Assembly (NCBI GenBank): GCA_903884105.1
Contig: CAISDJ010000029.1
Location: 1-64,000, forward strand
DNA: 64,000 nucleotides
Reading direction: 5' to 3'
Origin: an uncultured Pseudomonadota bacterium
GTDB taxonomy: Bacteria > Pseudomonadota > Gammaproteobacteria > Steroidobacterales > Steroidobacteraceae
Each line of letters opens with the position of its first letter. Positions within the stretch are counted from its first letter, which is position 1. A program made the translations under genes and the position numbers. A model generated the notes under the pieces. The model was not told where the DNA came from, ran no database searches, and saw nothing but the letters and a program-made list of their open reading frames with translations. Positions 46,456 to 61,175 of the stretch are shown here, piece after piece.

Positions 46456-47976
46456 ATGATCAAGCATTTACCCCTCGTCCTGGCGGTCGTTCTTGCGCCG
46501 CTGCTCGCAGTCGCGCAAGACAATTCCGCTGCGAAGGCGGCGCGGGAATGGCGTCAGCAGCACGAGCGCGCGATCGTCGACGAGTTCGTCGAGCTTCTCA
46601 AGATCCCGAACATTGCTGCGGACAAGGCCAATATCCAGCGCAATGCGGAGCTGATCGCAGCGATGCTCGAGAAGCGCGCTGTGCCGGCGCGGCTCGTCTC
46701 GGTGCCGGGCGGCAATCCGGTGGTGTTCGGCGAGATCAAGACGCCGGGCGCCACGCGCACGATCGTCCTGTATGCCCACTACGACGGGCAGCCGCTCGAT
46801 CCCAAGGAGTGGGCGATGCCGCCCTTCGAGCCCACGTTGCTCACCCGTTCCCTCAATGACGGCGGTACCGTCATTCCGCTGCCGCCGGCCGGCACACCGT
46901 TCGATCCAGAGTCGCGACTTTATGGAAGGGCCACGGCCGACGACAAGGCGCCGATCATCGCCATCGTCACCGCGCTCGATGCGATCCGCGCGGCGGGGCT
47001 CAAGACGAAGTCCAACATCAAGTTCGCGTTCGAGGGGGAAGAGGAGGCGGGTTCGATCAATCTTGAAAAGACCCTCGCTGCCAACAAGGAACTGTTCTCC
47101 GCCGACGTGTGGCTGATGTGCGATGCGCCGTTGCACCAGACTCGGCGCCAGTCTCTGATCTTCGGTGCGCGCGGACTCACGGCGATCGACATCACGACGT
47201 ACGGTCCCCGCAGCGAAACGCACAGCGGCCATTACGGAAACTGGGCGCCGAATCCTGCCTTTTCGCTGGCGCGGCTGCTGACGTCGATGAAGGACGAATC
47301 CGGCCGCGTACTCGTGAAGGATTTCTACAAAGGCATCGAACCCTTGAGCGCGCTGGAGAAGCAGGCGCTGAAAGACGCACCTGATGTTGACGCGCAGATC
47401 ATGCAGGAGATGCTGCTCGGCTCCACCGAGAACGCGCCGATGAAACTCGTCGAGCTGGTGACGCTGCCTTCGCTCAACATCCGCGGCATGGCAAGCTCGC
47501 GCATCGGCAACCAGGCATCGAACGTGATTCCCGCGACGGCTACGGCGACGCTCGACATCCGCCTCGTCAAAGGGCTCGATCGCGACACCGCCGTCAAGCG
47601 CGTGATCGACCACATCCGCAAACAGGGTTACTTCGTCGTCGACTCCGAGCCGGATGCCGCCGTACGCCTCGGACATGCCAAGGTCGCGAAGGTCGTCGTG
47701 CGTCCGGGTGGATATGGCGCAGCCCGCACGTCGATGGACCTGCCGATTTCGCAGGAACTCATCCGCGTCGTCGAAAGCGCGCGCGGCCCCGTCATCAAGC
47801 TACCCACGATGGGCGGCGGCCTACCCCTTGAAAGCGTCGAACGCCCACTCGGTACTCGTACCGTGATCATTCCCATCGGCAACCATGACAACAACCAGCA
47901 TGGGTACGACGAGAACCTGCGTATCCAGAACCTCTGGGACGGCATCGAGCTGATGGCGGCGCTGCTGACGATGTAA
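46456..47976 (+). CDS. Exported M20 family zinc peptidase
   Basis: This 506-residue protein has a signal peptide (about 1-20, ending LLAVAQ) and a complete M20 fold: VLYAHYDGQP and GRATADDKAP supply the first zinc ligands, FEGEEEAGS the catalytic Glu pair, and NHDNNQHGYDENLR the final His. The dimerisation domain with RGLTAIDIT is intact. It is probably a periplasmic dipeptidase or carboxypeptidase of the M20 dipeptidase group; the substrate is unknown. It starts the accessory half of the window. A second M20 gene at 54057-54720 is a deleted remnant. Confidence 0.92.
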   Translation: MIKHLPLVLAVVLAPLLAVAQDNSAAKAAREWRQQHERAIVDEFVELLKIPNIAADKANIQRNAELIAAMLEKRAVPARLVSVPGGNPVVFGEIKTPGATRTIVLYAHYDGQPLDPKEWAMPPFEPTLLTRSLNDGGTVIPLPPAGTPFDPESRLYGRATADDKAPIIAIVTALDAIRAAGLKTKSNIKFAFEGEEEAGSINLEKTLAANKELFSADVWLMCDAPLHQTRRQSLIFGARGLTAIDITTYGPRSETHSGHYGNWAPNPAFSLARLLTSMKDESGRVLVKDFYKGIEPLSALEKQALKDAPDVDAQIMQEMLLGSTENAPMKLVELVTLPSLNIRGMASSRIGNQASNVIPATATATLDIRLVKGLDRDTAVKRVIDHIRKQGYFVVDSEPDAAVRLGHAKVAKVVVRPGGYGAARTSMDLPISQELIRVVESARGPVIKLPTMGGGLPLESVERPLGTRTVIIPIGNHDNNQHGYDENLRIQNLWDGIELMAALLTM

Positions 47977-48006
47977 GGGGGGCGGTTCGCGAGACCCATA
48001 CCGCTT

Positions 48007-48022
48007 TGACGTCATGACGTCA
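48007..48022. repeat. Two adjacent TGACGTCA palindromes
   Basis: The perfect palindrome TGACGTCA occurs twice head to tail (48007-48014 and 48015-48022), followed by a related ACGTGATCGT. It lies directly before the probable start of the DUF2127 gene. Such arrays can be operators of dimeric regulators, but no regulator is nearby. Confidence 0.6.
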
Positions 48023-48026
48023 CGAC

Positions 48027-48437
48027 GTGATCGTCGCTGCAACCGGACTCCTGACCGTCGCCCACCAGAATATTCAAGACCTTGCGGCCCGGTTGATCGA
48101 ACACTCTCACCTGAATCCAGCCTCGAAGTATCCGCAGATCTTCATCGATGCAGCCGGCCGCCTGCAGGACACCCGGGTGGTTCTATTGGCGCTGGGTGCA
48201 GCCGTCTACTCCCTGGTCCGTCTTGCCGAAGCCTACGGCCTGTACCGCGAGAAGGCCTGGGCTGAAGTGCTCGCCGCTGCCAGCGCGGCAATCTACATGC
48301 CGATTGAGATCTATGAGTGGTTTCACCACCCGACATGGTTTCGTGCGGGGATCTTCGTCATCAACGTGGCTGTCGTCGCAGTCATGCTGCTCGCGCTCTA
48401 TCACCGGCAGCAGGCACGAAGCGCTTCGGCCAAATAG
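48027..48437 (+). CDS. DUF2127 family membrane protein, probably 5'-truncated
   Basis: The 136-residue product matches DUF2127 integral membrane proteins of unknown function: LARLIEHSHLNPASKYP, a helix at about 50-68, LAEAYGLYREKAWAEVLAAASAAIYMPIEIYEW, and a final helix. Family members normally begin with a full membrane helix about 20-25 residues longer than seen here. An in-frame stop at 48015 and only 50 bases after the M20 gene leave no room for it. The GTG start at 48027 has no Shine-Dalgarno. The gene may be truncated at its 5' end. Confidence 0.7.
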   Translation: MIVAATGLLTVAHQNIQDLAARLIEHSHLNPASKYPQIFIDAAGRLQDTRVVLLALGAAVYSLVRLAEAYGLYREKAWAEVLAAASAAIYMPIEIYEWFHHPTWFRAGIFVINVAVVAVMLLALYHRQQARSASAK

Positions 48438-48499
48438 TGATAGCGATCGGAAGGCGCGCCGGAACTGCGGTGCCCGTCCGATTTCCTGGAATTGCCAAC

Positions 48500-48622
48500 T
48501 CAGGCGGCTGCCGGAATCCGCAACTGCTGCAGGTCGACCTCACCCGACTTGCCGACCTGCGTGAGCGGCCATCCACGAGCTTGGCTCACGAAGTCCCTCA
48601 GGGTATCGTGTTGCCTCGTCTG
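48500..48622 (-). pseudogene. Tail remnant of an AMP-dependent ligase
   Basis: On the minus strand an open stretch of 40 codons ends RGWPLTQVGKSGEVDLQQLR and then IPAAA and stop. PLTQVGK followed by DLQQLR closely resembles the A10 motif and C-terminus of AMP-dependent acyl-CoA synthetases, in which the lysine is catalytic. LRDFV before it resembles the start of the same C-terminal subdomain, with the part between lost. There is no start codon and a stop lies just upstream. I read it as the end of a deleted gene; the family assignment rests on a short motif. Confidence 0.4.
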
Positions 48623-48695
48623 TCAAGGCGGTGCAGGCGCAATTGGTTTGAGTTTCAGGCGCCCTACGCCATCCCTTCTCTGCTCGGAGGTCCAA

Positions 48696-49118
48696 ATGAC
48701 GTCGTTCCGTACCACATGCATCATTGACGCGCCTTCGTCGAAGGTTTGGGCGATCCTGACGGACCTTGAGGCATGGCCGAAGTGGAATACGACTGTACCC
48801 AAAGTCGAAGGCACGGTGGCACTCGGGAACACGGTGACCGTGTACACCACAGCAAGCCCTGGCCGCGCATTTCCAGTGAAAGTGGCGGTACTGAATCCAC
48901 CGTGGGAAATGCTGTGGTCAGGGGGCATGCCCCTCGGGCTGTTCGTCGGTCGGCGGACGTTCACCTTGACTGAGCCTGCTCCAGGCAAGACCACCTTCAC
49001 GATGAAGGAAGAGTTCACGGGCTTGCTGGCTCCCCTCATCACGAAGTCCATTCCTGACCTGCAGCCACTCTTCGTCGAGTTTGCGGCCTGCCTCAAACGC
49101 GTTGCTGAGTGCTCATGA
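48696..49118 (+). CDS. SRPBCC (START-like) domain protein
   Basis: This 140-residue protein is a small ligand-binding helix-grip fold of the polyketide cyclase type. Typical features are the opening IDAPSSKVWAILTDLEAWPKWN and the closing helix PDLQPLFVEFAACLKRVAE. A good GGAGG lies six bases before the ATG. The ligand is unknown and there is no signal peptide. Its stop overlaps a 34-codon remnant of another SRPBCC gene, so two members of this fold lay side by side. Confidence 0.88.
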   Translation: MTSFRTTCIIDAPSSKVWAILTDLEAWPKWNTTVPKVEGTVALGNTVTVYTTASPGRAFPVKVAVLNPPWEMLWSGGMPLGLFVGRRTFTLTEPAPGKTTFTMKEEFTGLLAPLITKSIPDLQPLFVEFAACLKRVAECS

Positions 49119-49219
49119 CGATCACTGTTACGACGGTTGTTGCTGCAACCCTTCATGACGGCTGGCAGACGATCCTCGACAACGTCGGGCGGCATGTGCA
49201 GAGCAAGACATCCCGGTAG
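49115..49219 (+). pseudogene. Internally deleted AHSA1-type SRPBCC remnant
   Basis: This 34-codon frame overlaps the preceding stop as ATGA. It begins MTITVTTVVAA, like the first strand of AHSA1/SRPBCC proteins, and ends LHDGWQTILDNVGRHVQS, which is the characteristic last helix (GGWQxILDNF) of the same family. The approximately 100 residues between are gone, with the frame kept. It cannot fold as an SRPBCC domain. The assignment depends on two short matches in the correct order. Confidence 0.5.
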
Positions 49220-49258
49220 ACTGCTCCGATACGCCGATCATTCAGAAGAGGTCATCCC

Positions 49259-49885
49259 GTGTCCAAGGATTTCTTTGCACAGAAGGCGGCGGTCTACGAG
49301 AAAGACCAGCGCCGCGTCGACAGCGTCAACAACATCGCCACGGCGATCATCGAGCGCGTGAAGCTCGACAAGGGCATGCGCCTCATGGATTTCGGATCGG
49401 GCACGGGGCTATTGCTTGAAGGCGTTGCGCCGCAGGTGGGCAAGATCACCGCCATCGACGTCTCGAAGGCGATGAACCAGCAGCTTGCAGCGAAGCGCGG
49501 CAAGATCGGCTGTGAGCTCGAACTGCTGGAGCTCGATCTGACGACAGCCGGCCTTGACCGGCAGTTCGACGGCATCATTTCGTCGATGACCATGCATCAC
49601 GTGAAGGACATCGCCGCGATGTTCGGCAAGTTTCACGACATGGTGAAGCCGGGCGGCTTCATCGCGATCTCGGACCTCGACACGGAGGACGGCGGATTCC
49701 ATACGGAAGATACCGGCGTGCATCATCACGGCTTTGACCGGGAGACCTTTGCGGGCGCTGCGTGGTCGGCGGGATTCCAGGACGTTGTCGTCACGACGGC
49801 CAGCATCATGCGCAAGGCACAAGCCGAGTATCCCGTGTTCCTGCTGACGGGTTACAAGCAGATCGGGAGTGGTCTTCCATCCTGA
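49259..49885 (+). CDS. Class I SAM-dependent methyltransferase
   Basis: The 208-residue product has motif I MDFGSGTGLLLEGVAP (DFGSGTG at 44-50), ITAIDVSKAM for the ribose contact, SSMTMHHVKD (motif IV region) and LVKPGGFIAISDLDTEDGGFH-type post-motif sequence. The closest general type is the UbiE/Coq5-like methyltransferase 11 fold acting on small molecules; the substrate is unknown. The start is a GTG with AAGAGG nine bases before it. The next gene starts 12 bases after its stop. Confidence 0.9.
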   Translation: MSKDFFAQKAAVYEKDQRRVDSVNNIATAIIERVKLDKGMRLMDFGSGTGLLLEGVAPQVGKITAIDVSKAMNQQLAAKRGKIGCELELLELDLTTAGLDRQFDGIISSMTMHHVKDIAAMFGKFHDMVKPGGFIAISDLDTEDGGFHTEDTGVHHHGFDRETFAGAAWSAGFQDVVVTTASIMRKAQAEYPVFLLTGYKQIGSGLPS

Positions 49886-49896
49886 GTCCACCCAGC

Positions 49897-50379
49897 ATGT
49901 CGAAAGTACACGACCGCATTCGCGCACTGGGCCTGGTGTTGCCAGAGCCGCTCAAGATGCCGCCCGGCGTCGTGTTGCCGTTCCAGTTTGTCCGCGTGGT
50001 GGGCAGCAGTGCGTTCGTTTCCGGTCACGGTCCCACCACAAGCGACGGGTCCCTGGCCGAACCGTTGGGCAAGGTCGGTCGCGAGCTGACCACGGAGCAG
50101 GGCTACCATGCCGCCCGTCTTGCTGGGCTTGCGATGCTGGGCAGTATCGAGCGAGCGCTCGGCGATCTCGACCGCATCGTCGCGTGGACACGCGTGTTCG
50201 GCATGGTGAATTCGGCGCCCGGGTTCAATCGGCATCCGGCCGTCATCAACGGCTTCTCCGATCTCATTCTTGATGTATTCGGGCCCGAGATCGGTGCGCA
50301 CTCAAGAAGTGCGGTCGGCATGGCCGAATTGCCATTCGATCTTCCGGTGGAGATCGAAGCGCAGGTCGAGTTCAGGTGA
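49897..50379 (+). CDS. RidA/YjgF-like family protein
   Basis: This 160-residue protein belongs to the broader YjgF/Rid superfamily, in a subgroup longer than RidA. It opens RIRALGLVLPEPLKMPPG, has VVGSSAFVSGHGP and ARLAGLAMLGSIERALGDLD, and retains an arginine in HSRSAVGMAELP at the position of the RidA active-site arginine. Whether it deaminates enamines is unknown. The true RidA is at 12611-12991. It probably shares a transcript with the upstream methyltransferase. Confidence 0.88.
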   Translation: MSKVHDRIRALGLVLPEPLKMPPGVVLPFQFVRVVGSSAFVSGHGPTTSDGSLAEPLGKVGRELTTEQGYHAARLAGLAMLGSIERALGDLDRIVAWTRVFGMVNSAPGFNRHPAVINGFSDLILDVFGPEIGAHSRSAVGMAELPFDLPVEIEAQVEFR

Positions 50380-50422
50380 GAAGGAGGCCGGAGGGCTTGT
50401 GCCGCACCGGCCTCGCTTGAGA

Positions 50423-50956
50423 CTACTTCAGGCGCGAGGCGATCTTGTCGAGACCGGCCTGCGTGCAGACTTCGTCCTTGTCGCCGCCGGGCGCGCCGGA
50501 TACCGACATCGCACCGATGATCTCGCCGCCCACCTTGATGGGCAGTGCGCCGCGACGGGCCGTGCCGATCTTCGGGTCCGCCTTCACTTCGGCATCGAGC
50601 GCTGCGTCGGTCTTGACGCGGTCCGCGATGTCACCGCTCGGCACCTTGTACTTGATCGTCGCCGTCGTCTTGGTCAGACCGATCATCTGCGTGCGCTCGG
50701 CTACGCCGTCACCCGACAGCACCACGACCGGTACGCCAGCGGAGTCCACCACGGTCGCCGTGGTCTTGTAGCCATTGGCCAGGCAGACAGCGATAGCGGT
50801 CTGGGCGGCTTCAACAGCGAGCGCCATCTCCGGGCCCCGTGCACGGGGTGGAGCAGGGGGCAGTGCGCCCGGTGCAGGAGCCGGAGCCTGCGCCATGGCC
50901 GAGGCCGCTGCAATACTGGCGCTGACTAGAAAGGCAAGACGGCTGGGTTTCCGCAT
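50423..50956 (-). CDS. Exported GlcG/HbpS-type haem-degrading-like protein
   Basis: The 177-residue product has a signal peptide (about 1-22, ending ASAMAQ), a Pro/Ala linker, and a GlcG/HbpS domain: AAQTAIAVCLANGY, VVDSAGVPVVVLSGDGV, GARRGALPIKVGG-like loop and IGAMSVSGAPGGDKDEVC. Members of this fold bind haem or small ligands, and secreted versions are often of unknown role. The start was placed at the ATG before RKPSRLAFLV. It is convergent with the RidA-like gene and divergent from the next. Confidence 0.88.
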   Translation of the reverse strand: MRKPSRLAFLVSASIAAASAMAQAPAPAPGALPPAPPRARGPEMALAVEAAQTAIAVCLANGYKTTATVVDSAGVPVVVLSGDGVAERTQMIGLTKTTATIKYKVPSGDIADRVKTDAALDAEVKADPKIGTARRGALPIKVGGEIIGAMSVSGAPGGDKDEVCTQAGLDKIASRLK

Positions 50957-51121
50957 GGTGGAACATCCTTTGTGTGACTGACGAAATCCGGAACGAGATG
51001 GTACCCGACTTCGCCCCGCCGGGTGCCGGGTGGCCAGGGTTGCGGTATTGTGTGCATAGCAACAAGACACGACTTGTCGCCCCGTTTTTCCCGATCAGTG
51101 GCCACTGACACCACTCCGCGC

Positions 51122-51352
51122 ATGCTAACCGCCCTTCGCCTCGCAACGCCCGCTGACAGCCCGGTCCTCGATGACTTGCTTCCGGAGTCTGTCCGGGGGC
51201 TGCTGGTCGCGGCCTGCGCCGAGGCTGCAATCGCCAAGGGATCTACCCGGCTTGAGCTGATGTCGACGTTGCCCGGCGTGCCGTTCTACGCCAAGCTCGG
51301 GTTTGTGCGCATGACGCGGGCGGCACACTCCACAGGAGGCCGGCTGTCTTGA
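51122..51352 (+). pseudogene. GNAT acetyltransferase with the central core deleted
   Basis: The 76-codon frame starts LTALRLATPADSPVLDDLL and PESVRG, as in GNAT acetyltransferases. It then jumps directly to LLVAACAEAAIAKGSTRLEL and MSTLPGVPFYAKLGF, the last helix and strand of the same family. The intervening acetyl-CoA-binding strand and the Q/RxxGxG/A loop are absent. The reading frame is intact, so a short protein could be made, but it lacks the catalytic centre. It overlaps the next gene by four bases. Confidence 0.7.
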
Positions 51353-51858
51353 TCCACCGCATTCACGCTGACCTTGGCATCACGCCCGCGCTGCTGGAGG
51401 GTCGAGCACTGCTGCAGTACGAGGAGGCGCAGGGACTCGTGCCCGCCGAAAAGGCGCCGAACGGGCGCGTGCATTTCCTGCTGTCCGAGGCTGCCGCAGC
51501 GTGGCGTGCGATGAAAGAGGCAGCACAGAGCGACGGCGTCGACATTCACATCCTGTCCGGATTTCGCAGCATCGCGCGCCAAGGCGAACTGATCCAGGCG
51601 CGTCTCGACGGAGGCATGGCCATCGAAGATGTCTTGAAGATCCTTGCGCCCCCGGGGTACAGCGAGCATCACACCGGCCGCGCGGTGGATGTGTCCACCG
51701 AAGGCATCAAGGTATTGCAGCCCGAATTCGAGTCCACTCCGGCTTTCACATGGCTCAGCGGTCATGCGGGCAAGTTTGGATTCATGCTGTCTTTTCCCAG
51801 AGCCAATTCCGCCGGCTACGGCTACGAGCCCTGGCACTGGTGTTACCGCGGGCGATGA
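51349..51858 (+). CDS. VanY-type D-alanyl-D-alanine carboxypeptidase
   Basis: This 169-residue M15-family zinc peptidase trims the terminal D-Ala of peptidoglycan peptides. It has HILSGFRSIARQ, the zinc motif SEHHTGRAVD (105-114), and the closing EPWHWCY with the last ligand His. No signal peptide is visible, so it may act in the cytoplasm or lack its leader. The start is a TTG supported by AGGAGG ten bases upstream and by overlap with the preceding remnant. Length is short but the catalytic domain is complete. Confidence 0.9.
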   Translation: MIHRIHADLGITPALLEGRALLQYEEAQGLVPAEKAPNGRVHFLLSEAAAAWRAMKEAAQSDGVDIHILSGFRSIARQGELIQARLDGGMAIEDVLKILAPPGYSEHHTGRAVDVSTEGIKVLQPEFESTPAFTWLSGHAGKFGFMLSFPRANSAGYGYEPWHWCYRGR

Positions 51859-51898
51859 GCGGTCCGCCGCCGATGCGCCATGTCACAATTGCGGGCCC

Positions 51899-52576
51899 AT
51901 GAACAAGACGCTGACTCAAGATGCGATTGCCGCCGGCCCCTTCGGAGCCTGGCTTGAGCAGGCCCGCGAGTCGCTGCATGGGGCTCGCGGTTCAGACGTT
52001 CCGTGCGGGGACTGCGTGGGGTGCTGCGTCTCGTCGTACTTCATTCCCGTTCGGCCGGAAGACACAGCGGCTCTCGATACGATCCCGGCGAAGTATCTGG
52101 TCAACGCACCAGGGCAGCCCCGCGAACAGTGGATGATGGGGTACCGCGAGGACGGCACCTGTCCGATGCTGACCGACCGCAAGTGCACGATCTACGCGCA
52201 GCGCCCGCAAACCTGCCGTGACTACGATTGCCGCGTGTTCGCCGCAGCAGGGATCGACGCGGGCGGCGACGACAAGGTCGTCATCAATCGTCGCGTCCAT
52301 GCGTGGCGCTTCACGTACCCATCGCCGTCCGACCAGGCAGCGCACGCTGCCGTACAAGCGGCGGCGGCCTTCATCACGACCCGGCGTGACAAGTTTCCCG
52401 GCGCTCGCGCTCCCACGGCGCCGACGGGCATCGCCGTCCTCGCCTTGAAAGTCTATGCAGTCTTCCTGGACCCCGGTTTGCAGGCGAAGACGGAGTCGGA
52501 CATCGCGTTGGCGATCATCTCGGCCAGCCGCGATTTCGACACCCGCGCACGCGAGGCGGAACGTTCCCCGGCGTGA
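51899..52576 (+). CDS. YkgJ-type cysteine cluster protein
   Basis: The 225-residue protein contains the zinc or iron-chelating cysteine cluster: CGDCVGCC at 36-43, then CPMLTDRKCTIYAQRPQTCRDYDCRVF. These are the eight or so cysteines expected of the family. Function is unknown; members are proposed to bind Fe-S or zinc. The C-terminal half is mostly helical. It starts 40 bases after the VanY-type gene and is followed by an osmC-like gene on the same strand. Confidence 0.88.
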   Translation: MNKTLTQDAIAAGPFGAWLEQARESLHGARGSDVPCGDCVGCCVSSYFIPVRPEDTAALDTIPAKYLVNAPGQPREQWMMGYREDGTCPMLTDRKCTIYAQRPQTCRDYDCRVFAAAGIDAGGDDKVVINRRVHAWRFTYPSPSDQAAHAAVQAAAAFITTRRDKFPGARAPTAPTGIAVLALKVYAVFLDPGLQAKTESDIALAIISASRDFDTRAREAERSPA

Positions 52577-52605
52577 CGCACATCCACAGAAAGTGAAGGA
52601 CATGC

Positions 52606-53118
52606 ATGAACGCAGATGAATTGCGAGCCACCCAGGCACCGCTCAAGGCCCTGTACAAGGAAACACCGGACGCTGCGATGGTCACGCTGCGTGCCCAGGG
52701 ACGGATCGGAGAAGGCGTCAGCTGTCGCGTCGAAACCGGGAAGGCGCTGGTCGTCGCGGGTCTGCACCCCGCCACCGGGGGCACGGGCCTGGCGGCGTGC
52801 TCAGGCGATATGCTGCTGGAAGCGCTGGTGGCCTGTGCCGGCGTGACGCTAAATGCAGTTGCGACTGCGCTTGGCATCGAACTGCGCGATGCGTCCCTGC
52901 TCGCGGAGGGCGATCTCGACTTTCGCGGGACGCTCGGTGTGTCGAAGGAAGTCCCCGTCGGCTTCAAGACCATCCGCCTCGAGTTCATGCTGGACACCGA
53001 CGCGTCCGAAGAGCAGCTCGCAACGCTGCTCAAGCTCACGGAGCGCTACTGCGTGGTCTATCAGACGCTGGCCCATCCGCCGACAATGTCCGTGTCCCGC
53101 AAGGTTGCCAAGGCATGA
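52606..53118 (+). CDS. OsmC family peroxiredoxin-like protein
   Basis: OsmC-family proteins reduce organic hydroperoxides using two cysteines. The 170-residue product has candidate cysteines in LEALVACAGVTLNA (Cys77) and ERYCVVYQTL (Cys149), the expected spacing for the pair. A further cysteine lies in GLAACSGD (Cys65). The C-terminus PTMSVSRKV is typical. It forms a short same-strand run with the cysteine cluster gene and may serve thiol or oxidative stress tolerance. Confidence 0.9.
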   Translation: MNADELRATQAPLKALYKETPDAAMVTLRAQGRIGEGVSCRVETGKALVVAGLHPATGGTGLAACSGDMLLEALVACAGVTLNAVATALGIELRDASLLAEGDLDFRGTLGVSKEVPVGFKTIRLEFMLDTDASEEQLATLLKLTERYCVVYQTLAHPPTMSVSRKVAKA

Positions 53119-53210
53119 CCGGCTGACGCGGAGACAGCGGTGGCAAAAGGAGAGGCTTGCCATGCAGAATGTCGGCACCTGCATCAGGCTCGACACCCCG
53201 AGACGAGTCA

Positions 53211-53495
53211 ATGACCGACACTAAAAAGCCGCTACGGATCGCTGTCTTGCTGGCCGCCACGCTTGGCATGGTCGGCTGCGGCCATGACGAAGCACCTGCC
53301 GAATCCCCGCAACGACGCGCCCCGCAGAGTGTGGGTGCGGATCGCGACAAACACGGCTGCATCGGCTCGGCCGGCTACACCTGGTGTGCGCGGGCGAATC
53401 AGTGCGAACGGCCTTGGGAACTCGCGAAGGCGAGGGGCCTGGTCGAGGGCGCAGTAGCCTATCAGCAGTTCTGTTCCGCGAGCCGCGACCCTTGA
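53211..53495 (+). CDS. Small lipoprotein with GYTWC motif
   Basis: The 94-residue protein has a short lipoprotein signal with lipobox ending MVGC (Cys23), followed by a disordered segment and the block HGCIGSAGYTWCARANQCERPWE. This cysteine-rich block recurs in small bacterial envelope proteins and may form disulphides; its function is unknown. The start at 53211 was chosen as the ATG immediately before the basic n-region. It stands between the osmC-like gene and a DNA glycosylase gene. Confidence 0.78.
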   Translation: MTDTKKPLRIAVLLAATLGMVGCGHDEAPAESPQRRAPQSVGADRDKHGCIGSAGYTWCARANQCERPWELAKARGLVEGAVAYQQFCSASRDP

Positions 53496-53547
53496 GGGAT
53501 TGAGCCACGACTTGCCCGAGTCGTGCCGAACGCTACACTGCAGGGCC

Positions 53548-54060
53548 ATGAGACCGGAGCGGATCGAGAGCTTTTCCTGCATCGCGACGCGCACGGCGCG
53601 CATCCTGATTCTCGGCAGCATGCCGGGAGAAGCTTCGTTGCAGGCGCAGCAGTACTACGCTCACCCCCGCAATGCGTTCTGGCCGATCATGGCAGGCATT
53701 CTGGGATTTGACGCGAAGGTTCCGTACCCCGCTCGCATTGCAGCTCTGCGCGCCAACGGCATTGCGCTCTGGGATGTGCTCGCGTCGTGCCATCGCAGCG
53801 GCAGCCTCGACAGCGAGATCGAGTCGCCCTCCGTGGTCGTCAACGACTTCGAGGCGTTCTTCACCGCGTACCCGGGGATCACGCAAGTCTGCTTCAATGG
53901 TGGAACGGCAGAGCGTTACTTCAAGCGCCGGGTCCTGGCCATCCCGGGGATGCGCAATCTGCACTACACTCTCTTGCCTTCTACCAGTCCGGCGCATGCG
54001 GCGCTGTCGCTGGCCCGCAAGACAGAGGCCTGGCGTGCTGCACTGGCGACTGTTCGATGA
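53548..54060 (+). CDS. DNA-deoxyinosine/uracil glycosylase of the Mug-like superfamily
   Basis: The 170-residue product belongs to the uracil-DNA glycosylase superfamily, nearest to the hypoxanthine-DNA glycosylase group. The motif ILGSMPGEASLQAQQYYAHP followed by RNAFW opens the active site. FNGGTAERYF and LLPSTSPAHA form the second and third motifs. It removes deaminated bases from DNA in base-excision repair. I chose the ATG at 53548, just before the family start; the M20 remnant overlaps its stop as ATGA. Confidence 0.9.
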   Translation: MRPERIESFSCIATRTARILILGSMPGEASLQAQQYYAHPRNAFWPIMAGILGFDAKVPYPARIAALRANGIALWDVLASCHRSGSLDSEIESPSVVVNDFEAFFTAYPGITQVCFNGGTAERYFKRRVLAIPGMRNLHYTLLPSTSPAHAALSLARKTEAWRAALATVR

Positions 54061-54720
54061 GGACGCAGACGATGCGAAACGCGATGACCTCCTTTCTGGT
54101 GCCTGCCCTGCTCTGGGGTCCGTTCCCGGTGAATGCGCAGAAGCTGAATCCCGAAGAGCAGCGAATCGTCGCGAGCGTCGATGCCCGCGTGGACGAGGCG
54201 AACCAGCTGCTCGAGCGCTTCGTGAACATGCCGAGCGCCACGCAGAATATCGCGGGCGTGCGCCAGGTCGGTGATGTGTTCCAGCAGGAGTTTGCGGCTC
54301 CGGGGTTCACCACCCGGAGGGTCGGCATGCCGAAGGAAATGCAGCGGGCCGGTCACCTCGTTGCCGAACACCCGGGCAAGCAGGGCAAGCGCATCCTGCT
54401 CCTCGGGCATCTCGATACTGTGATTGAGGGCGAGCGCTTTCGCAGGAATGGAACGACGGCGAACGGCACCGGCGTCAACGACATGAAGGGTGGCGACGTG
54501 ATCCTGCTGTTTGCACTGAAGGCCCTCAAGGCGCTCGATGCGGCCGAGCGGGGCGCGGGCGACATATCCTATGTCGCGCCTTACGTAGCCGTACTCGACG
54601 GTCTCGGCATCATGGGCGAAGGCTCGCATGCACCCGGCGAGACGGCCGACCTCGACTCCTTAGCTCCTGCTGCTCAAGCGCACGGCGCTGCTGCCCTATC
54701 GCCTGTCGCTGCAGAACTGA
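54057..54720 (+). pseudogene. M20 peptidase with large internal deletion and frameshift
   Basis: The frame begins with a signal peptide (ending FPVNAQ) and the N-terminal M20 region LLLGHLDTVIEGERFRRNG, then GTGVNDMKGGDVILLFALKAL. It jumps at about 54555 to GDISYVAPYVAVLDGLGIMG and EGSHAPGE, which belongs to the extreme C-terminus. The dimerisation domain and later metal ligands (about 200 residues) are missing. Near 54660 a +1 shift is needed to reach the natural ending LLLKRTALLPYRLSLQN and stop at 54720; without it translation runs on to 54749. It is non-functional as a peptidase. Confidence 0.8.
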
Positions 54721-54776
54721 CCCCGCCCATGACAGAATTCGTGTGTTGATTCGGGCGACATAACGGAGGAAGCGGC

Positions 54777-55364
<588 letters not shown>

Positions 55365-55449
55365 GCGCAGTCGATGCTGTACCGCGACGCCAAGATGACC
55401 CTGGCGTGACCGCACCCGGGTCAATCAGCGAGCTCGCAGAACCGGATCC

Positions 55450-55596
55450 GTGGCTGCCTATTGCCTGGCGAAGCGTGCAAATGCGAAAGTAAGCCTCCTT
55501 GAGGCTACCCTCATGGGTGAGCCTTGGCAGCAGCTTGCTCGTGTGCACCGCACCAGCCTGCTGCTGGCGGTCGACGAGTACGAAAAGAACGACTGA
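55450..55596 (+). other. Short open frame with protein-like ending, origin unknown
   Basis: A frame open from 55399, with a GTG at 55450, encodes 48 residues ending ATLMGEPWQQLARVHRTS then LLLAVDEYEKND and stop. The composition looks coding, but I do not recognise it. It is preceded by a stop and lacks a Shine-Dalgarno. It may be the tail of another deleted gene or a genuine small protein. The rest of the 287-base gap (55365-55651) holds a six-pair hairpin at 55492-55506 and nothing else I can identify. Confidence 0.3.
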
Positions 55597-55651
55597 CGCA
55601 GCACCTCTCCCCGGTCGACTAACCCGGCAGAGAGGCAAGAGAATAGAACGC

Positions 55652-56392
55652 ATGTTCGGCGGGCCGAATCGAACGGTACTCGTTGCGGGCGCGAGCGGTG
55701 TCATCGGACGCAGGCTATGCCGTCTGCTGGTCGAAGACGGCTGGAGCGTCGTCGGCATGACCCGTTCAGAGGAAAAGGCCAAAGCCCTCGCCGCCATGGG
55801 GGTCAAGCCGCTGGTCGTCGATGTGTTCGATGCCGCCAAGCTCAAGAGCGCAGTGGTCGGGGCGAAGCCCACCATCGTCGTGCACATGCTGACTGACTTG
55901 CCGCCGGCGTTGGCGCCCGCCGCCATGGCGACCGCCCGGGTCCGCAATACCCACATCCGCGATATCGGTACCCGCAATCTCGTCGCTGCTGCCGTCGCAG
56001 CCGGCGCGCAACGCATGGTGGCCCAAAGCGTGTGCTTCGCCTATGCGCCGGGGCTGATGCCCTATCCCGAGGATCGGGCCCTCAATGCAGGCTCGATCGC
56101 GGGCAACGACGGCGTCCTCGCGCGTGGCGTGATCGCACTCGAGCGGCAGGTCATGGGGGCGCCGCTCACCGGGGTCGTGTTGCGATTCGGCAAGTTCTAT
56201 GGACCCGAGACCGGACTGGATGCACCACCCGCTGGCGGGCCGGTCCACGTGGATGCCGCCGCCGATGCAGCCCGTCGGGCCGTCAGCCGGGGCAAAGCCG
56301 GGGCGTACAACATCGCCGAGGAGGACGGAGCCGTCCTCACCAGCAAGGCCCGGTTCGATCTCGATTGGCGTCCTGGGTTCCGTATCGGCTAG
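55652..56392 (+). CDS. NAD(P)-dependent epimerase/dehydratase-like protein
   Basis: The 246-residue Rossmann-fold protein opens with the dinucleotide motif VAGASGVIGRR (GxxGxxG at 13-19) and continues TRNLVAAAVAAGAQRMVAQS and LRFGKFYGPETG, as in extended SDR epimerases. The usual YxxxK catalytic pair is not evident; the corresponding region reads VCFAYAPGLMPYPEDR, so it may be an atypical SDR. AGAGG lies about 20 bases upstream, so initiation is uncertain. The end KARFDLDWRPGFRIG is family-like. The substrate is unknown. Confidence 0.85.
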   Translation: MFGGPNRTVLVAGASGVIGRRLCRLLVEDGWSVVGMTRSEEKAKALAAMGVKPLVVDVFDAAKLKSAVVGAKPTIVVHMLTDLPPALAPAAMATARVRNTHIRDIGTRNLVAAAVAAGAQRMVAQSVCFAYAPGLMPYPEDRALNAGSIAGNDGVLARGVIALERQVMGAPLTGVVLRFGKFYGPETGLDAPPAGGPVHVDAAADAARRAVSRGKAGAYNIAEEDGAVLTSKARFDLDWRPGFRIG

Positions 56393-56525
56393 CAACCGGC
56401 CTTAAGGGCAACGCCTTATGGGAATGCGGCGGCGCCGCCCCCATGCTGCTTGCATGCCCACCCCCAATGTTCGGTACCCCCCCCGGAGCGCAGGCCCCGG
56501 CCGACATCCTGCAGGAGAGATGCCC

Positions 56526-56909
56526 ATGTACTACATCGTTGAATCGTCCAAGACTTTCGAGCAGGCTGCCAACGACCTCGACGCGGCCGTGAAGCGGAAC
56601 GGCTTCGGGGTCCTGCATGTCCATGATCTCGGCAACACACTGCGCAGCAAGGGCCAGGCGTTCACCGAGCAGTGCAAGGTCTTCGAGGTCTGCAATCCCG
56701 CTCAGGCTGCCAAGGTGCTGTCGACCGACATGCGGCTCAACATGGCGCTGCCGTGCCGGATTTCCGTCTTCACCGAGCACGGCAAGACGAAGATTGGCCT
56801 GATCAAACCGGTCCAGATGCTGTCGTCCCTGTCGCAGGACCCGGTTCTGGCAACTGTCGCGAAAGAAGTCGAAGACAAGACCATCCTGATGGTGGATGAG
56901 GCGAAGTAG
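56526..56909 (+). CDS. DUF302 family protein
   Basis: This 127-residue product matches DUF302: YYIVESSKTFEQAANDLDAAVKRNGFGVLHVHDLG, then VFEVCNPAQAAKVLSTDMRLNMALPCRISVF, with the cysteines and LPCRI block conserved. These small cytoplasmic proteins are of unknown function and sometimes associate with metal or sulfur metabolism. GGAGAG lies seven bases before the ATG at 56526; another ATG two codons earlier is possible. It is solitary, following the epimerase by 133 bases. Confidence 0.88.
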   Translation: MYYIVESSKTFEQAANDLDAAVKRNGFGVLHVHDLGNTLRSKGQAFTEQCKVFEVCNPAQAAKVLSTDMRLNMALPCRISVFTEHGKTKIGLIKPVQMLSSLSQDPVLATVAKEVEDKTILMVDEAK

Positions 56910-57032
56910 CCGGATGCACGGTGCGCCAGCTCTTCCTCGCGGCGCTCGTTGCTGCGAGGCTCAAGCGATCGGGAGAGCAGGCGTAGCGCTGATCGGCAAC
57001 AATGGCAGCCGGTGGCCGTTTCCGGATACGCG

Positions 57033-57644
57033 ATGTCACGCCAAGTTGTCCTTCCCGTTCTGGCCGGGGTGATCGTCATACTGCTGCTCGTCTCCGGGTG
57101 GCACCCCTTCGACCGCGCGACGTGGTGGATGGAAGTGGCGCCGGTCCTGATCGCATTGCCGTTGCTGGTGCTCACGCGGGACCGCTTCCCGCTGACGCCG
57201 TTGCTGTATGCCCTGATCTTCATCCATGCGACCATTCTGATCGCGGGTGGCGCGTACACCTATGCGCGCGTTCCCCTTGGATTCTGGCTCCAGGGCATGT
57301 TCGACCTGGGCCGCAATCCGTACGACAAGATCGGACACTTCGCCCAGGGGCTGGTCCCCATGCTGCTTGCAAGGGAAGTGTTGCTGCGCAAGGGCTATGT
57401 CGCCGGCAGCCGTATCGCCGGCTTCCTGTCGATCTGCTTCGCCATGGCCGTCAGCGCCTGGTATGAACTGATTGAATGGGGGGCGGCACTCGCCATGGGG
57501 CAGGGGGCTGACGAATTCCTCGGTACCCAGGGGGACATCTGGGATACGCAGTCCGACATGTTCATGGCGTTCCTTGGTGCGACGAGCGCCTACGTGTTGC
57601 TGTCACGGCTGCACGATCGCCAGATCCGCACAACCGCGAGGTGA
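57033..57644 (+). CDS. DUF2238 (YjdF-like) inner membrane protein
   Basis: The 203-residue protein has about five to six membrane helices and the conserved DUF2238 blocks NPYDKIGHFAQGLVPMLLARE, FAMAVSAWYELIEW and GDIWDTQSDMFMAFLGA. Function is unknown; the charged residues within helices suggest a small transporter or enzyme, which is speculation. The ATG at 57033 was chosen because the hydrophobic N-terminus starts directly after it. It is followed three bases later by another small membrane protein gene, probably in the same transcript. Confidence 0.88.
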   Translation: MSRQVVLPVLAGVIVILLLVSGWHPFDRATWWMEVAPVLIALPLLVLTRDRFPLTPLLYALIFIHATILIAGGAYTYARVPLGFWLQGMFDLGRNPYDKIGHFAQGLVPMLLAREVLLRKGYVAGSRIAGFLSICFAMAVSAWYELIEWGAALAMGQGADEFLGTQGDIWDTQSDMFMAFLGATSAYVLLSRLHDRQIRTTAR

Positions 57645-57647
57645 TGC

Positions 57648-57995
57648 ATGTACGAAAAGAAGGTCGAGGCCCCGTTGTCCCGCCGTCGCTTTGCACGACG
57701 TATCATGTTGCACATCGTTGTTGCCGCGGCCCTGTTGCTCGCCTCGCTGGGACTCGGCATGACGGGGTACGAGTCCCTCGAGCAGTTGCCGTGGCGGGAT
57801 GCTTTCCTGAATGCCGCAATGCTGCTCGGCGGCATGGGACCGGTCGATCCCCCCCAAACCGACGCAGGCAAGGTGTTTGCGGGCCTGTACGCGTTGTATG
57901 CTGGTCTCGTGTTCCTGCTGATCGTCGGATTGGTCTTTACGCCGGTGGTTCACCGGTTGCTCCACAAGTTCCACTGGGACCAGCAAGCGGAGTGA
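57648..57995 (+). CDS. Small two-helix membrane protein, K+ channel pore-like
   Basis: The 115-residue protein has a basic N-terminus, a helix at about 19-40, a short re-entrant-like segment DAFLNAAMLLGGMGPVDPP, and a second helix at about 78-103. The helix-loop-helix layout and AMLLGGMGP at the selectivity-filter position resemble two-helix ion channel domains, but the K+ signature TVGYG is absent. I call it a hypothetical membrane protein. It is coupled to the DUF2238 gene by a three-base gap. Confidence 0.75.
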   Translation: MYEKKVEAPLSRRRFARRIMLHIVVAAALLLASLGLGMTGYESLEQLPWRDAFLNAAMLLGGMGPVDPPQTDAGKVFAGLYALYAGLVFLLIVGLVFTPVVHRLLHKFHWDQQAE

Positions 57996-58002
57996 ATCGT
58001 CT

Positions 58003-58464
58003 GTGCCATCTCGCATGACCGATACCAGACCGGCGAAGCTCGAAGACGCTGCAAGCATCGCCACGCTCTCGACGCAACTGGGCTACCCCTCGACGACCGA
58101 GCAGGCCGGCTCGCGACTGAACGACCTGCTCGCGAATCCCGACCACTTCGTCGTCGTGGCCGTTGTCGATGGTCAGGTGTCCGGTTGGGCCCACGTTGAA
58201 CGACGCATCAATCTCGAAACCGTGGAGCGGGCCGAGTTGATGGGCCTGGTCGTCGACGCGCAGGCCCGGCGTGCAGGGATCGGTCGAGCACTGGTGGAAA
58301 CGGCGGAGCGGTGGGCCGCGGCCCGCCACCTCGGCGTCATGACGGTCCGCTCGAACGTCGTCCGCGACGGATCCCATGCTTTCTACCGGCAGCTCGGGTA
58401 CAAGGCCGTGAAGACACAGCATGTCTATCAGAAGGACCTTCGCGACGCTGCGCATCGAGCTTGA
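58003..58464 (+). CDS. GNAT family N-acetyltransferase
   Basis: The 153-residue product is an intact GNAT enzyme: TRPAKLEDAASIATL at the start, then AELMGLVVDAQARRAGIGRALVETAERWA, where RRAGIGRA is the acetyl-CoA pyrophosphate loop, and SHAFYRQLGYKAVKT at the end. The substrate is unknown. GTG at 58003 has GGAG ten bases upstream; an ATG four codons later is equally possible. It overlaps the next acetyltransferase gene by 44 bases in another frame. Confidence 0.9.
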   Translation: MPSRMTDTRPAKLEDAASIATLSTQLGYPSTTEQAGSRLNDLLANPDHFVVVAVVDGQVSGWAHVERRINLETVERAELMGLVVDAQARRAGIGRALVETAERWAAARHLGVMTVRSNVVRDGSHAFYRQLGYKAVKTQHVYQKDLRDAAHRA

Positions 58465-58951
58465 ACGTCCAACCCTGTTGCGCGAGCAGGAGTTCCTGAG
58501 TGCGGTAAAGTACAGCGTCAAGTTGCACAAGGGACTGGTTGCACCGCCGCCCACGGTCGAGCGGTATCGCGCATTCCTCGGTGGGTTACGCGGCGACTCG
58601 AGGGCAAGCTTCTTCGTCGTAGTGAAGCGAACGGACACGATCGCCGGAGTCGTCACGATCAGCGAGATCGTGCGGGGTACCTTCCAGTCGGCCTACCTTG
58701 GTTACTACGCGCTGGAACCGAATGCGGGTGAAGGCTACTTGCGTGAAGGGCTGCAGCAGGTCATCTCGCATGCCTTTGGCAAGTTGAAGTTGCATCGTCT
58801 TGAAGCCAACATCCAGCCAGGAAATCAGCGTTCGATCGCGCTCGTCAAACGGCTTGGGTTCAAGCGCGAGGGCTACTCACCGCGCTATATCAAGGTCTGC
58901 GGTCGCTGGCGCGACCATGAGCGCTGGGCGCTACTGGCCGACGCGCGGTAG
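58421..58951 (+). CDS. RimJ/RimL-type GNAT acetyltransferase
   Basis: The 176-residue product resembles ribosomal-protein or amino-acid acetyltransferases: LRIELERPTLLREQEFLSAV, YLGYYALEPNAGEGYLREGLQQVI, KLHRLEANIQPGNQRSIALVKRLGFKREGYSPRY, and the RimJ-like ending WRDHERWALL. The usual acetyl-CoA loop R/QxxGxG/A is replaced by GEGYLREG, as in other RimJ proteins (G-x-G-Y/ amphipathic pattern). Its start lies inside the upstream acetyltransferase gene, so the two are probably translated together. Confidence 0.88.
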   Translation: MSIRRTFATLRIELERPTLLREQEFLSAVKYSVKLHKGLVAPPPTVERYRAFLGGLRGDSRASFFVVVKRTDTIAGVVTISEIVRGTFQSAYLGYYALEPNAGEGYLREGLQQVISHAFGKLKLHRLEANIQPGNQRSIALVKRLGFKREGYSPRYIKVCGRWRDHERWALLADAR

Positions 58952-59111
58952 GAAATACCCACGACCGGGCTGGCGGGTGCGCTTACCCAAGGCAACCCCC
59001 GTGTCGATTCTACTTACATCCCCGGAAAGTCCGGTATTGCCTGATGTAACCAAGCCCCCGATGGTGAAAGCATGGCAACCCAAGGCATGAGTGTTGCTGT
59101 CTGGCTGGACC

Positions 59112-59573
59112 ATGAGCCTCTCCCTCTTCGTGAACACGGGCCGAGCGTTGTCGTTATGTCTGTTGGGCTGTACCGTTTCCGCAACGGCGTCCGCGGGCAC
59201 CGAACCTGAGGCGGCTTTGGGTTTCGACCTCACCCTTGAGCGCGCCACCGAATTGCAGGACGCTGGCAGTTACGACGCGGAACTCCAGATCTATCAGAGC
59301 CTGTGCGAGGATGGTCCTGCCGATCCTCATCTGCTCTTCGAAATGGCGCGGGCCTCCTTGGCCGCCGGCAATTTCAGCGCCTGCGTGGACTACTCACTAC
59401 GCAGTAGCGTGAGTGAATCGCGTGACCAGGGCGCTGCGTTTGGCGTGCTGGCCAAGGGCCAGCACCGCAGTCCCCCGCGCCGAGGGCAGTCCCGAGTGGC
59501 TGAGCGCGCATCGCCCGCAATTCGAAAGGTTCGTCGAATACCTGGCACGGAACCGGGCGACGTGCCCGCCTGA
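59112..59573 (+). pseudogene. Exported TPR-like protein, probably internally deleted and frameshifted
   Basis: The frame begins with a signal peptide (to about ATASAG) and TPR-like helices: LERATELQDAGSYDAELQIY and PHLLFEMARASLAAGNFSAC. After AAFGVLAKGQ the sequence becomes Arg/Ser/Pro-rich and unlike protein. In another frame, from about 59480, it reads PEWLSAHRPQFERFVEYLAR, a plausible C-terminal helix of the same kind of protein. I infer loss of the middle repeats with an out-of-frame junction near 59455-59485. Alternatively it is a short TPR protein with a random tail. Confidence 0.5.
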
Positions 59574-59668
59574 ACACCCTTTCCGCCGAATCGCTGCAGC
59601 GATTCACGTAAACTCTTGCGCCACAGGTCCGCGAAGGTCGCGGACGACAGGGAGCCGGGTTTCTCATC

Positions 59669-60130
59669 ATGCGATTCCATGTGCAATGGGTTCTGGCGGT
59701 GCTCTGCACCGTCCTGCCGTGGCTGCCGCTGCAAGCGGCCGAAGGTGACGCGCCCGTGCCGGTCGTGTTGCGGCACGCAGGTACCGATCCTGTCGGCTTC
59801 GTGCTCGCAGCGGCTGTCAGCCAGGCGTTGACCGCCGCTCCGGAATTCAGACAAGCAGGGGAGGGCGGGACGCCGCGCGTGGTGTTGATCGTCGCTACCG
59901 TGGACGGCAGCGTCGAGGACCCCGGCAAGCAGACGGCCGCCTCCATCAATGTGCTCTACGATGCCGATACGCTGCCGCTCAACGGCTACCTGCTGTCCGG
60001 GCTCGTGCAGGTCTGTGGCATCACTCGTACGGAAGCGTGCGCGCAGGAAATCATGGCGACGCTGCTGGCGGCGGTAACCCGGTTGCGGACGAGCGATCCG
60101 GAGCTGTGGTCGGCAATGCAGCCACGATGA
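59669..60130 (+). CDS. Exported hypothetical protein
   Basis: I do not recognise this 153-residue protein. It has a clear signal peptide (about 1-23, ending PLQAA) and a small alpha/beta-looking domain with ALTAAPEFRQAGEGG, RVVLIVATVDGSVEDPG and INVLYDADTLPLNGYLLSGL, plus two cysteines (CGITRTEAC) that could form a disulphide. It is translationally coupled to a small two-helix membrane protein through an ATGA overlap. Confidence 0.7.
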   Translation: MRFHVQWVLAVLCTVLPWLPLQAAEGDAPVPVVLRHAGTDPVGFVLAAAVSQALTAAPEFRQAGEGGTPRVVLIVATVDGSVEDPGKQTAASINVLYDADTLPLNGYLLSGLVQVCGITRTEACAQEIMATLLAAVTRLRTSDPELWSAMQPR

Positions 60131-60381
60131 CAAAAGAGGGCGACATCGACAGCGAGCGGCAGGACGCAGCCCGACGCGGGCGGGCTCTCCTCTACACGGT
60201 GGGGGGTGCTCTGGCGGCGAGCGCCGTCCTGCTCGACCTTCTACCTGCGCTCGGGGCCTTTGCCTCGCCTCTGCGCGTCAGGGCCCTGGCCCTCGCGGGT
60301 GCCCTGTTCCTTGCGATAGGACGCTTGGGTACGCCAACGCTGCTCAGCGGCCTCGGCAAGCGAGGGCGGCGTCCCGGTTGA
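60127..60381 (+). CDS. Small hypothetical membrane protein
   Basis: The 84-residue product has an acidic/basic N-terminus and two hydrophobic segments (about 21-45 and 49-70), ending in a basic tail. The ATG overlaps the stop of the preceding secreted protein gene. I recognise no family. It converges on the gene at 60411-61175. Confidence 0.6.
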   Translation: MTKEGDIDSERQDAARRGRALLYTVGGALAASAVLLDLLPALGAFASPLRVRALALAGALFLAIGRLGTPTLLSGLGKRGRRPG

Positions 60382-60410
60382 GTTCGCTGCCGGGCCTGTA
60401 CCGCGACCCG

Positions 60411-61175
60411 CTATTTCATCTGCAGGCGGGTCCACCCGGCGTCAACGAGTTCGCCGCGCCAGGTGTAGCCCTGCAGGTCGATGCGGTATTCCCCGGGGCC
60501 GAACGCCGAGGAATTGAGCGCGATTCGCAGTTCCCGATTGGAGTCCGGGGAGATGCGACGAATCTGCATGATGCGAGCTTCGCCTGCCTTTTCGATCGTC
60601 ACCGAAAAGCTGTTGAAGTGCGCTTCCGTGACGTCGATTCTCAGTTCCAGCAGTTGCGGTGGGTCAGGCCAGGCCACGGTGACACCGGGTGCCGACTGTG
60701 GCCCCTGCGTGCCGAGAGCGAGCTTGTAACTCTGCACGCCAGAAGGGGGCTTCAGCCGCGCGGTTTCCGCCGAGGTGTTCATCAAGGCGAGCCGGTTCTC
60801 GAGCTTCTGTACTGCCATCAGGTGATAGGCAATCCCGGCGCCTGCCACGAGGACGGCCACGAGCAGGACCGCGAGCTGTTTGCCGCGCTCCGCCCTGCCT
60901 GATTCGGCTGGCGAGAGGTCGTCATCGATGGCATCACCCATCTCGACTGCCTCGCGCGTTGCGGTCGAGGGAATCGCCGGGAACATGCCGGTCTCGCCGT
61001 CCTCGAAAGGCCGCTTCGCCAGGCGCGTCTTGAGCCGCACCGGAATCGGCAGCTGCGCGAGGAATTCCGGATGCTCGAGGCAATACTTCTCGAAGGCCCG
61101 GGCCTCGCGAACGAGCAGATCACCGGACAGGTATCGCTCGACGACTTCTCGTGACTCGATGTAGGCGCGATCCAT
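60411..61175 (-). CDS. Membrane protein with anti-sigma-like layout, hypothetical
   Basis: The 254-residue protein has a cytoplasmic N-terminal part with EVVERYLSGDLLVREARAFE, resembling the helical N-terminus of anti-sigma or zf-HC2-like proteins but without cysteines. One membrane helix lies at about 101-119, followed by a periplasmic beta-rich domain (VTVAWPDPPQLLELRIDV, GEYRIDLQGYTWRGELV). No sigma factor gene is adjacent, so the anti-sigma reading is only a structural analogy. Its start codon overlaps an in-frame ATG on the opposite strand. Confidence 0.65.
   Translation of the reverse strand: MDRAYIESREVVERYLSGDLLVREARAFEKYCLEHPEFLAQLPIPVRLKTRLAKRPFEDGETGMFPAIPSTATREAVEMGDAIDDDLSPAESGRAERGKQLAVLLVAVLVAGAGIAYHLMAVQKLENRLALMNTSAETARLKPPSGVQSYKLALGTQGPQSAPGVTVAWPDPPQLLELRIDVTEAHFNSFSVTIEKAGEARIMQIRRISPDSNRELRIALNSSAFGPGEYRIDLQGYTWRGELVDAGWTRLQMK

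Follow-up and report, generated by a model that had tools for sequence, protein, structure and literature searches.

In the window analyzed (64,000 nucleotides (nt), positions 1 to 64,000 of contig CAISDJ010000029.1 of an uncultured Steroidobacteraceae bacterium), the tract 48027–59573 contains three genes that have lost their middle parts and kept both ends of a recognizable family, and probably a fourth, TPR-type one. As judged by sequence comparison, similar damage is present on another contig of the same genome. With a probability of about 0.76, these remnants are pseudogenes of dispensable genes worn down by successive deletions. The deletions appear to be real rather than errors of assembly, and their most likely cause is an ordinary one, namely the already known deletion-biased erosion of pseudogenes, which probably proceeds by slippage between short repeats.

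The window belongs to a draft genome of 3.73 Mb (G000; 144 contigs, 99.29% complete), which was compared with a congeneric genome assembled separately (G001; 77% complete). The remnants are listed below (aa, amino acids).

49115–49219, plus strand: AHSA1-type SRPBCC remnant of 34 aa, both ends kept, about 100 aa lost in frame
51122–51352, plus strand: GNAT remnant lacking 273 and 54 bp of the intact G001 gene through two deletions, both in frame (each a multiple of three)
54057–54720, plus strand: M20 peptidase remnant, about 200 aa lost in frame, followed by a frameshift near the C-terminal end
59112–59573, plus strand: probable TPR protein remnant with an out-of-frame internal deletion, C-terminal end weakly placed

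Retained ends and collinearity with the related genome

Comparison of the region 47396–60876 with G001 (locus L039, 1–19000) revealed eight matching blocks with conserved order and orientation, and this collinearity made a gene-by-gene test of the remnants possible. The intact GNAT gene of G001 encodes 190 aa (L039 9391–9963). The 54-bp deletion is flanked in G001 by TCGGGTT and TCGGCTT; a second aligner broke the 273-bp gap into segments of 125, 106 and 42 bp. The M20 and TPR genes had no hit with an E-value of 0.001 or lower in G001, either at this locus or in the rest of the assembly, and the G001 blocks adjoin each other at both positions. Thus, the comparison with related loci yielded an intact collinear counterpart for GNAT.

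The ends of the other remnants were placed using proteins of relatives. Residues 1–18 of the AHSA1-type remnant (3–18 in L052) and approximately 15–31 align to opposite ends of intact SRPBCC proteins in all six relatives compared (L051–L054, L056 and L057, with L055 left out; the pairwise E-values come from tiny one-locus searches). In the case of M20, separate BLAST pieces for the N- and C-terminal parts, with a gap of about 200 aa between them, were obtained with 9 of 11 relatives, and the N-terminal piece alone matched in L007 and L008. In the M20 remnant, the alignment columns bearing the GDEE motif are missing; its frameshift was read by eye from the translations. The N-terminal part of the TPR remnant matches proteins of G169 and G137, and its C-terminal end, read in a different frame, resembles a single protein, L042, weakly (one-locus search, E 0.018). 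The original prediction of retained ends and lost middles is therefore confirmed by proteins of relatives for AHSA1, GNAT and M20, which have intact homologues elsewhere, and is probable for TPR, where the support is weaker. The genes adjacent to the remnants are, as had been stated, intact-looking: they are open reading frames (ORFs) of normal length, collinear in G001 wherever G001 holds them.

Similar damage elsewhere in the genome

Internally deleted genes were counted in seven syntenic tracts, chosen by the available G001 sequence rather than at random, comprising 220,408 bp of this genome and 234,359 bp of G001. Among 194 G001 genes of at least 80 aa, 152 were intact in this genome, 22 absent, 4 internally deleted, 11 flagged for a frame change and 5 partial. 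In the reverse comparison (182 genes of this genome searched in G001), 151 were intact, 13 absent, none internally deleted, 15 flagged and 3 partial. The flag counts use ORFs from a simple gene caller, and some of the flags (11 and 15) and broken-like entries (14 and 10) resemble antisense ORFs or short spurious first pieces.

The four internally deleted genes are GNAT and three genes of contig C16 (60872–61453, 76234–77420 and 88144–88987), designated OMP-like, GGDEF-EAL-like and reprolysin-like from their sequences without a family search; parts near both ends are retained in each of the three. One of the four lies in the present 16-kb tract, which makes up 7% of the comparison, and the other three lie elsewhere in the 220 kb. 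By hand calculation, the chance that at least one of four falls in a 7% tract is about 0.26, so that no local excess emerges from this measure, which covers genes intact in G001; AHSA1, M20 and TPR fall outside it, and a several-fold local excess of remnants may exist. Hence, the predicted cluster stands as a set of remnants present here, while the damage extends to contig C16. The wider count that had been proposed was carried out over the 220 kb against G001 (4 of 194 genes). In addition, 643 kb of this genome was scanned with genes taken from G116 and G137 (a 400-kb sample of either genome); the new candidates were all of low identity, and the failure of the scan to report M20, AHSA1 and TPR indicates its low power. 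The scans were built to detect larger internal deletions.

The dead loci show net DNA loss, its direction being read from gene intactness alone. Gaps of at least 30 bp amounted to 3667 bp missing here versus 399 bp missing in G001 for the C16 tract, 82 versus 35 bp for the start of C29, and 7298 versus 1269 bp for the present tract, where much of the sum is a 6.9-kb difference at 48027.

A G001 ORF of 812 aa (C176 66104–68542) is represented here by pieces in several ORFs, with the C-terminal half gone (G000 C16 160317–161387); this may be decay by another route or an error of the gene caller.

Junctions, short repeats and reading frame

Eight deletions could be anchored on G001: 273 and 54 bp in GNAT, 199 bp in the OMP-like gene, 369, 40 and 591 bp in the GGDEF-EAL-like gene, and 246 and 732 bp in the reprolysin-like gene (the count excludes a gap of 50 bp bordering the latter gene on its 3' side). 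Breakpoints were clean in five of them. Imperfect direct repeats were clear at two of these five junctions, namely the 54-bp deletion of GNAT and the 369-bp deletion of the GGDEF-EAL-like gene (14 of 17 bases identical on visual inspection), marginal at two and lacking at one, which bears out in part the earlier suggestion of short repeats at the junctions. The pooled p values were 0.014, 0.008, 0.133, 0.112 and 0.776 (Fisher 0.0025); the breakpoints were chosen by the aligner, which may bias them slightly toward repeats. Neither G000 (99.29% complete) nor G001 (77%) gave a Ku match, with a positive control search in Bacillus subtilis; 6 of 36 searched genomes gave a match.

The reading frame was kept in six of the eight anchored deletions, and in 8 of 11 when AHSA1, M20 and TPR were added; the deletions of the OMP-like and TPR genes are out of frame. 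Under an expectation of one third, 8 of 11 has a probability of 0.0088, with the reservation that the window remnants were chosen by a reader noticing open frames, which favours in-frame cases. However, exact direct repeats within the genes of this genome lie in the same phase in 54% (repeats of at least 6 bp) to 71% (at least 10 bp) of pairs, which makes the observed proportion unremarkable.

A mechanism can be proposed on this basis. Short direct repeats, by slippage or annealing, would give rise to most deletions, and Ku-dependent end joining would play no part. Since codon use would bring the majority of such repeats within genes into a common codon phase, most deletions would keep the frame. 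The ends of a dead gene would last longest because closely packed neighbours must survive and deletions within the gene would be tolerated.

Constraint on the retained pieces and alternative explanations

Omega was calculated for pairs of G001 and this genome from pieces trimmed at the junctions, and the values include the G001 branch. For 106 intact orthologues the median was 0.085 (5–95% range 0.03–0.20). The reprolysin-like gene, with omega 0.27 (rank 0.991 among the 106), is clearly in long-running decay. Among the four reported window remnants, omega was computed for GNAT alone. Earlier values of 0.15–0.30 for all four internally deleted genes, obtained from untrimmed pieces, were withdrawn because of misaligned codons past the junctions. 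Besides the deletions, a frameshift occurs in M20, three frame changes in the GGDEF-EAL-like gene and one stop in the reprolysin-like gene.

Several results weigh against gradual erosion of dead genes. The omega of GNAT (0.19, rank 0.925) is high but lies inside the 5–95% range of intact genes, and the OMP-like and GGDEF-EAL-like genes (0.09 each, rank 0.566) show no sign of long decay; they may have died recently, or be misassembled, or still be working somehow. Internally deleted genes number 4 of 194 in one direction and 0 of 182 in the other. Three of the eight anchored junctions are unresolvable, the OMP-like junction is the resolvable one without a repeat, and the AHSA1, M20 and TPR junctions were compared at the protein level only, without nucleotide alignment. 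Finally, if each of the four window genes had undergone one random deletion sparing its neighbours, the rough chance that all would keep both ends is 0.065 (AHSA1 0.22, GNAT 0.65, M20 0.85, TPR 0.55); the inputs were estimated by the author and the four genes were selected for kept ends.

The conserved OMP-like and GGDEF-EAL-like pieces, the imbalance of four internally deleted genes to none and the draft state of a genome in 144 contigs would fit an assembler that joined across the middles of genes, some of which are in fact intact. This collapse, raised in the original prediction, is unlikely, although two of the four constraint-tested remnants are conserved to the degree of intact genes. 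A search of 47900–60000 for direct repeats of at least 20 nt listed none longer than 31 nt (74% identity), the most alike being 20 nt at 90%; the repeats at the junctions, including those of the C16 genes, which were judged from junction contexts, do not exceed 17 bp. Moreover, the frame changes and the stop are situated outside the junctions, G001, an independent assembly, likewise gave no M20 or TPR match, and the reprolysin-like pieces are clearly relaxed. The surviving frames might instead mark functional mini-proteins kept by selection, as the 8 in-frame deletions of 11 and the open frames of the GNAT and AHSA1 remnants would allow. We consider this very improbable: in-phase repeats alone predict 54–71% in-frame deletions, the M20 remnant combines the loss of the GDEE columns with a frameshift, and the GNAT omega exceeds that of 92.5% of intact genes.

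It is also doubtful that, through a deletion-prone process specific to this lineage, its dead genes undergo internal deletion faster than point mutation. Four internally deleted genes here against none in G001 over the same tracts would agree with it, as would the GGDEF-EAL-like gene, whose pieces are conserved like intact genes despite three deletions and three frame changes; yet the two-sided sign-test probability of 4 versus 0 is 0.125 (hand calculation), and the mode of decay seems mixed, since the 812-aa ORF of G001 survives here in pieces. Similarly doubtful is a broader version, in which newly dead genes are altered faster by deletion between codon-phased repeats than by point mutation and the in-frame, possibly translated short forms regularly supply new small proteins. 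Erosion of dispensable genes by successive deletions thus remains the favoured reading.

Left edge of the region and neighbouring features

The following features lie at the left edge of the tract or were compared with it.

48027–48437, plus strand: DUF2127 gene, 5'-truncated (Pfam E 2.2e-38, profile positions 17–138 of 140)
48503–48622, minus strand: open stretch of 40 aa, earlier labelled an AMP-ligase tail, identity not confirmed
48696–49118, plus strand: intact-looking SRPBCC gene (Polyketide_cyc2, Pfam E 4.8e-15)
L039 1176–2147, G001: integron integrase (TIGR02249), adjoining the breakpoint of the window
L112 17303–18268 (G000 C5:37303–38268), elsewhere in this genome: integron integrase (TIGR02249)

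The predicted 5' truncation of DUF2127 holds, the Pfam match beginning at profile position 17 and the G001 collinearity breaking at 48027, the truncated start of the gene. Past this point, G001 contains 6.9 kb (with an integron integrase, a gene weakly similar to RelE and others) and the window 1.2 kb. By contrast, the AMP-ligase label did not hold: the stretch 48503–48622 gave nothing in Pfam or NCBIfam (E up to 1) or in the PDB (E up to 10), and the best hit in another genome among 217 had E 0.064. It is presumed to resemble the terminal part of an adenylate-forming enzyme.

At the place matching DUF2127 to AHSA1, G001 has a weak RelE-like match (E 0.0038, short of the cut-off), the integron integrase and attC-like sites, which were recognized by eye and then aligned. 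One attC-like site is 93% identical between G001 (L039 4280–4367) and this genome (L112 16707–16795). By-eye inspection revealed no attC-like sites in the window. Interpretation of the window genes from DUF2127 to AHSA1 as integron cassettes was not adopted, in view of this and because the G001 integrase gave no counterpart in the window tract. The palindrome TGACGTCA occurs in two head-to-tail copies at 48007–48022 and also in G001 (L039 612–627), where the copies directly precede a RelE-like pair; this pair gave no counterpart in the window tract.

Upstream, the region 19027–47396 gave only short G001 matches and no collinear counterpart among the 40 of 173 and 40 of 111 candidates that were scored, the absence being uncertain at 77% completeness of G001. 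For a methyltransferase-like gene (49259–49885), a search that detects close relatives only found nine loci in GTDB contigs, six of which are titled Sulfurovum or Epsilonproteobacteria (49–52% identity). No Rfam match was obtained at gathering thresholds in the window or L039, and promoter and terminator counts were no higher than in shuffled sequences.

Comparison with known systems

RecA-independent deletion between short direct repeats proceeds by slippage or single-strand annealing. The present loci resemble this system in that some junctions carry imperfect repeats of short length and no Ku match was obtained, and differ from it in that one of the five tested junctions has no repeat and two are marginal. 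Among the titles and abstracts searched, none linked in-frame pseudogene deletions to codon-phased repeats, which says little about novelty.

According to a review (PMC5447742), inactivated sequence in bacteria erodes by small deletions and this bias is general, and a Salmonella study (PMC2916853) reports a strong deletional bias; Mira et al. 2001 and Kuo and Ochman 2009 are cited in these papers. The remnants agree with these accounts, in which genes not under selection are inactivated and removed. Decay by internal deletion, as originally predicted, is thus retained with deletional bias as its likely cause; the bias itself is not special to this region, being described as general in bacteria (PMC5447742). 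In the Salmonella study, indels below 10 bp and premature stops are among the commonest lesions, whereas larger internal deletions, which the scan sought, are prominent here. Kept family ends would need no special repair process: short-repeat deletion, tight gene packing and codon periodicity would suffice. For annotation, small in-frame ORFs with the ends of a known family may be dead genes.

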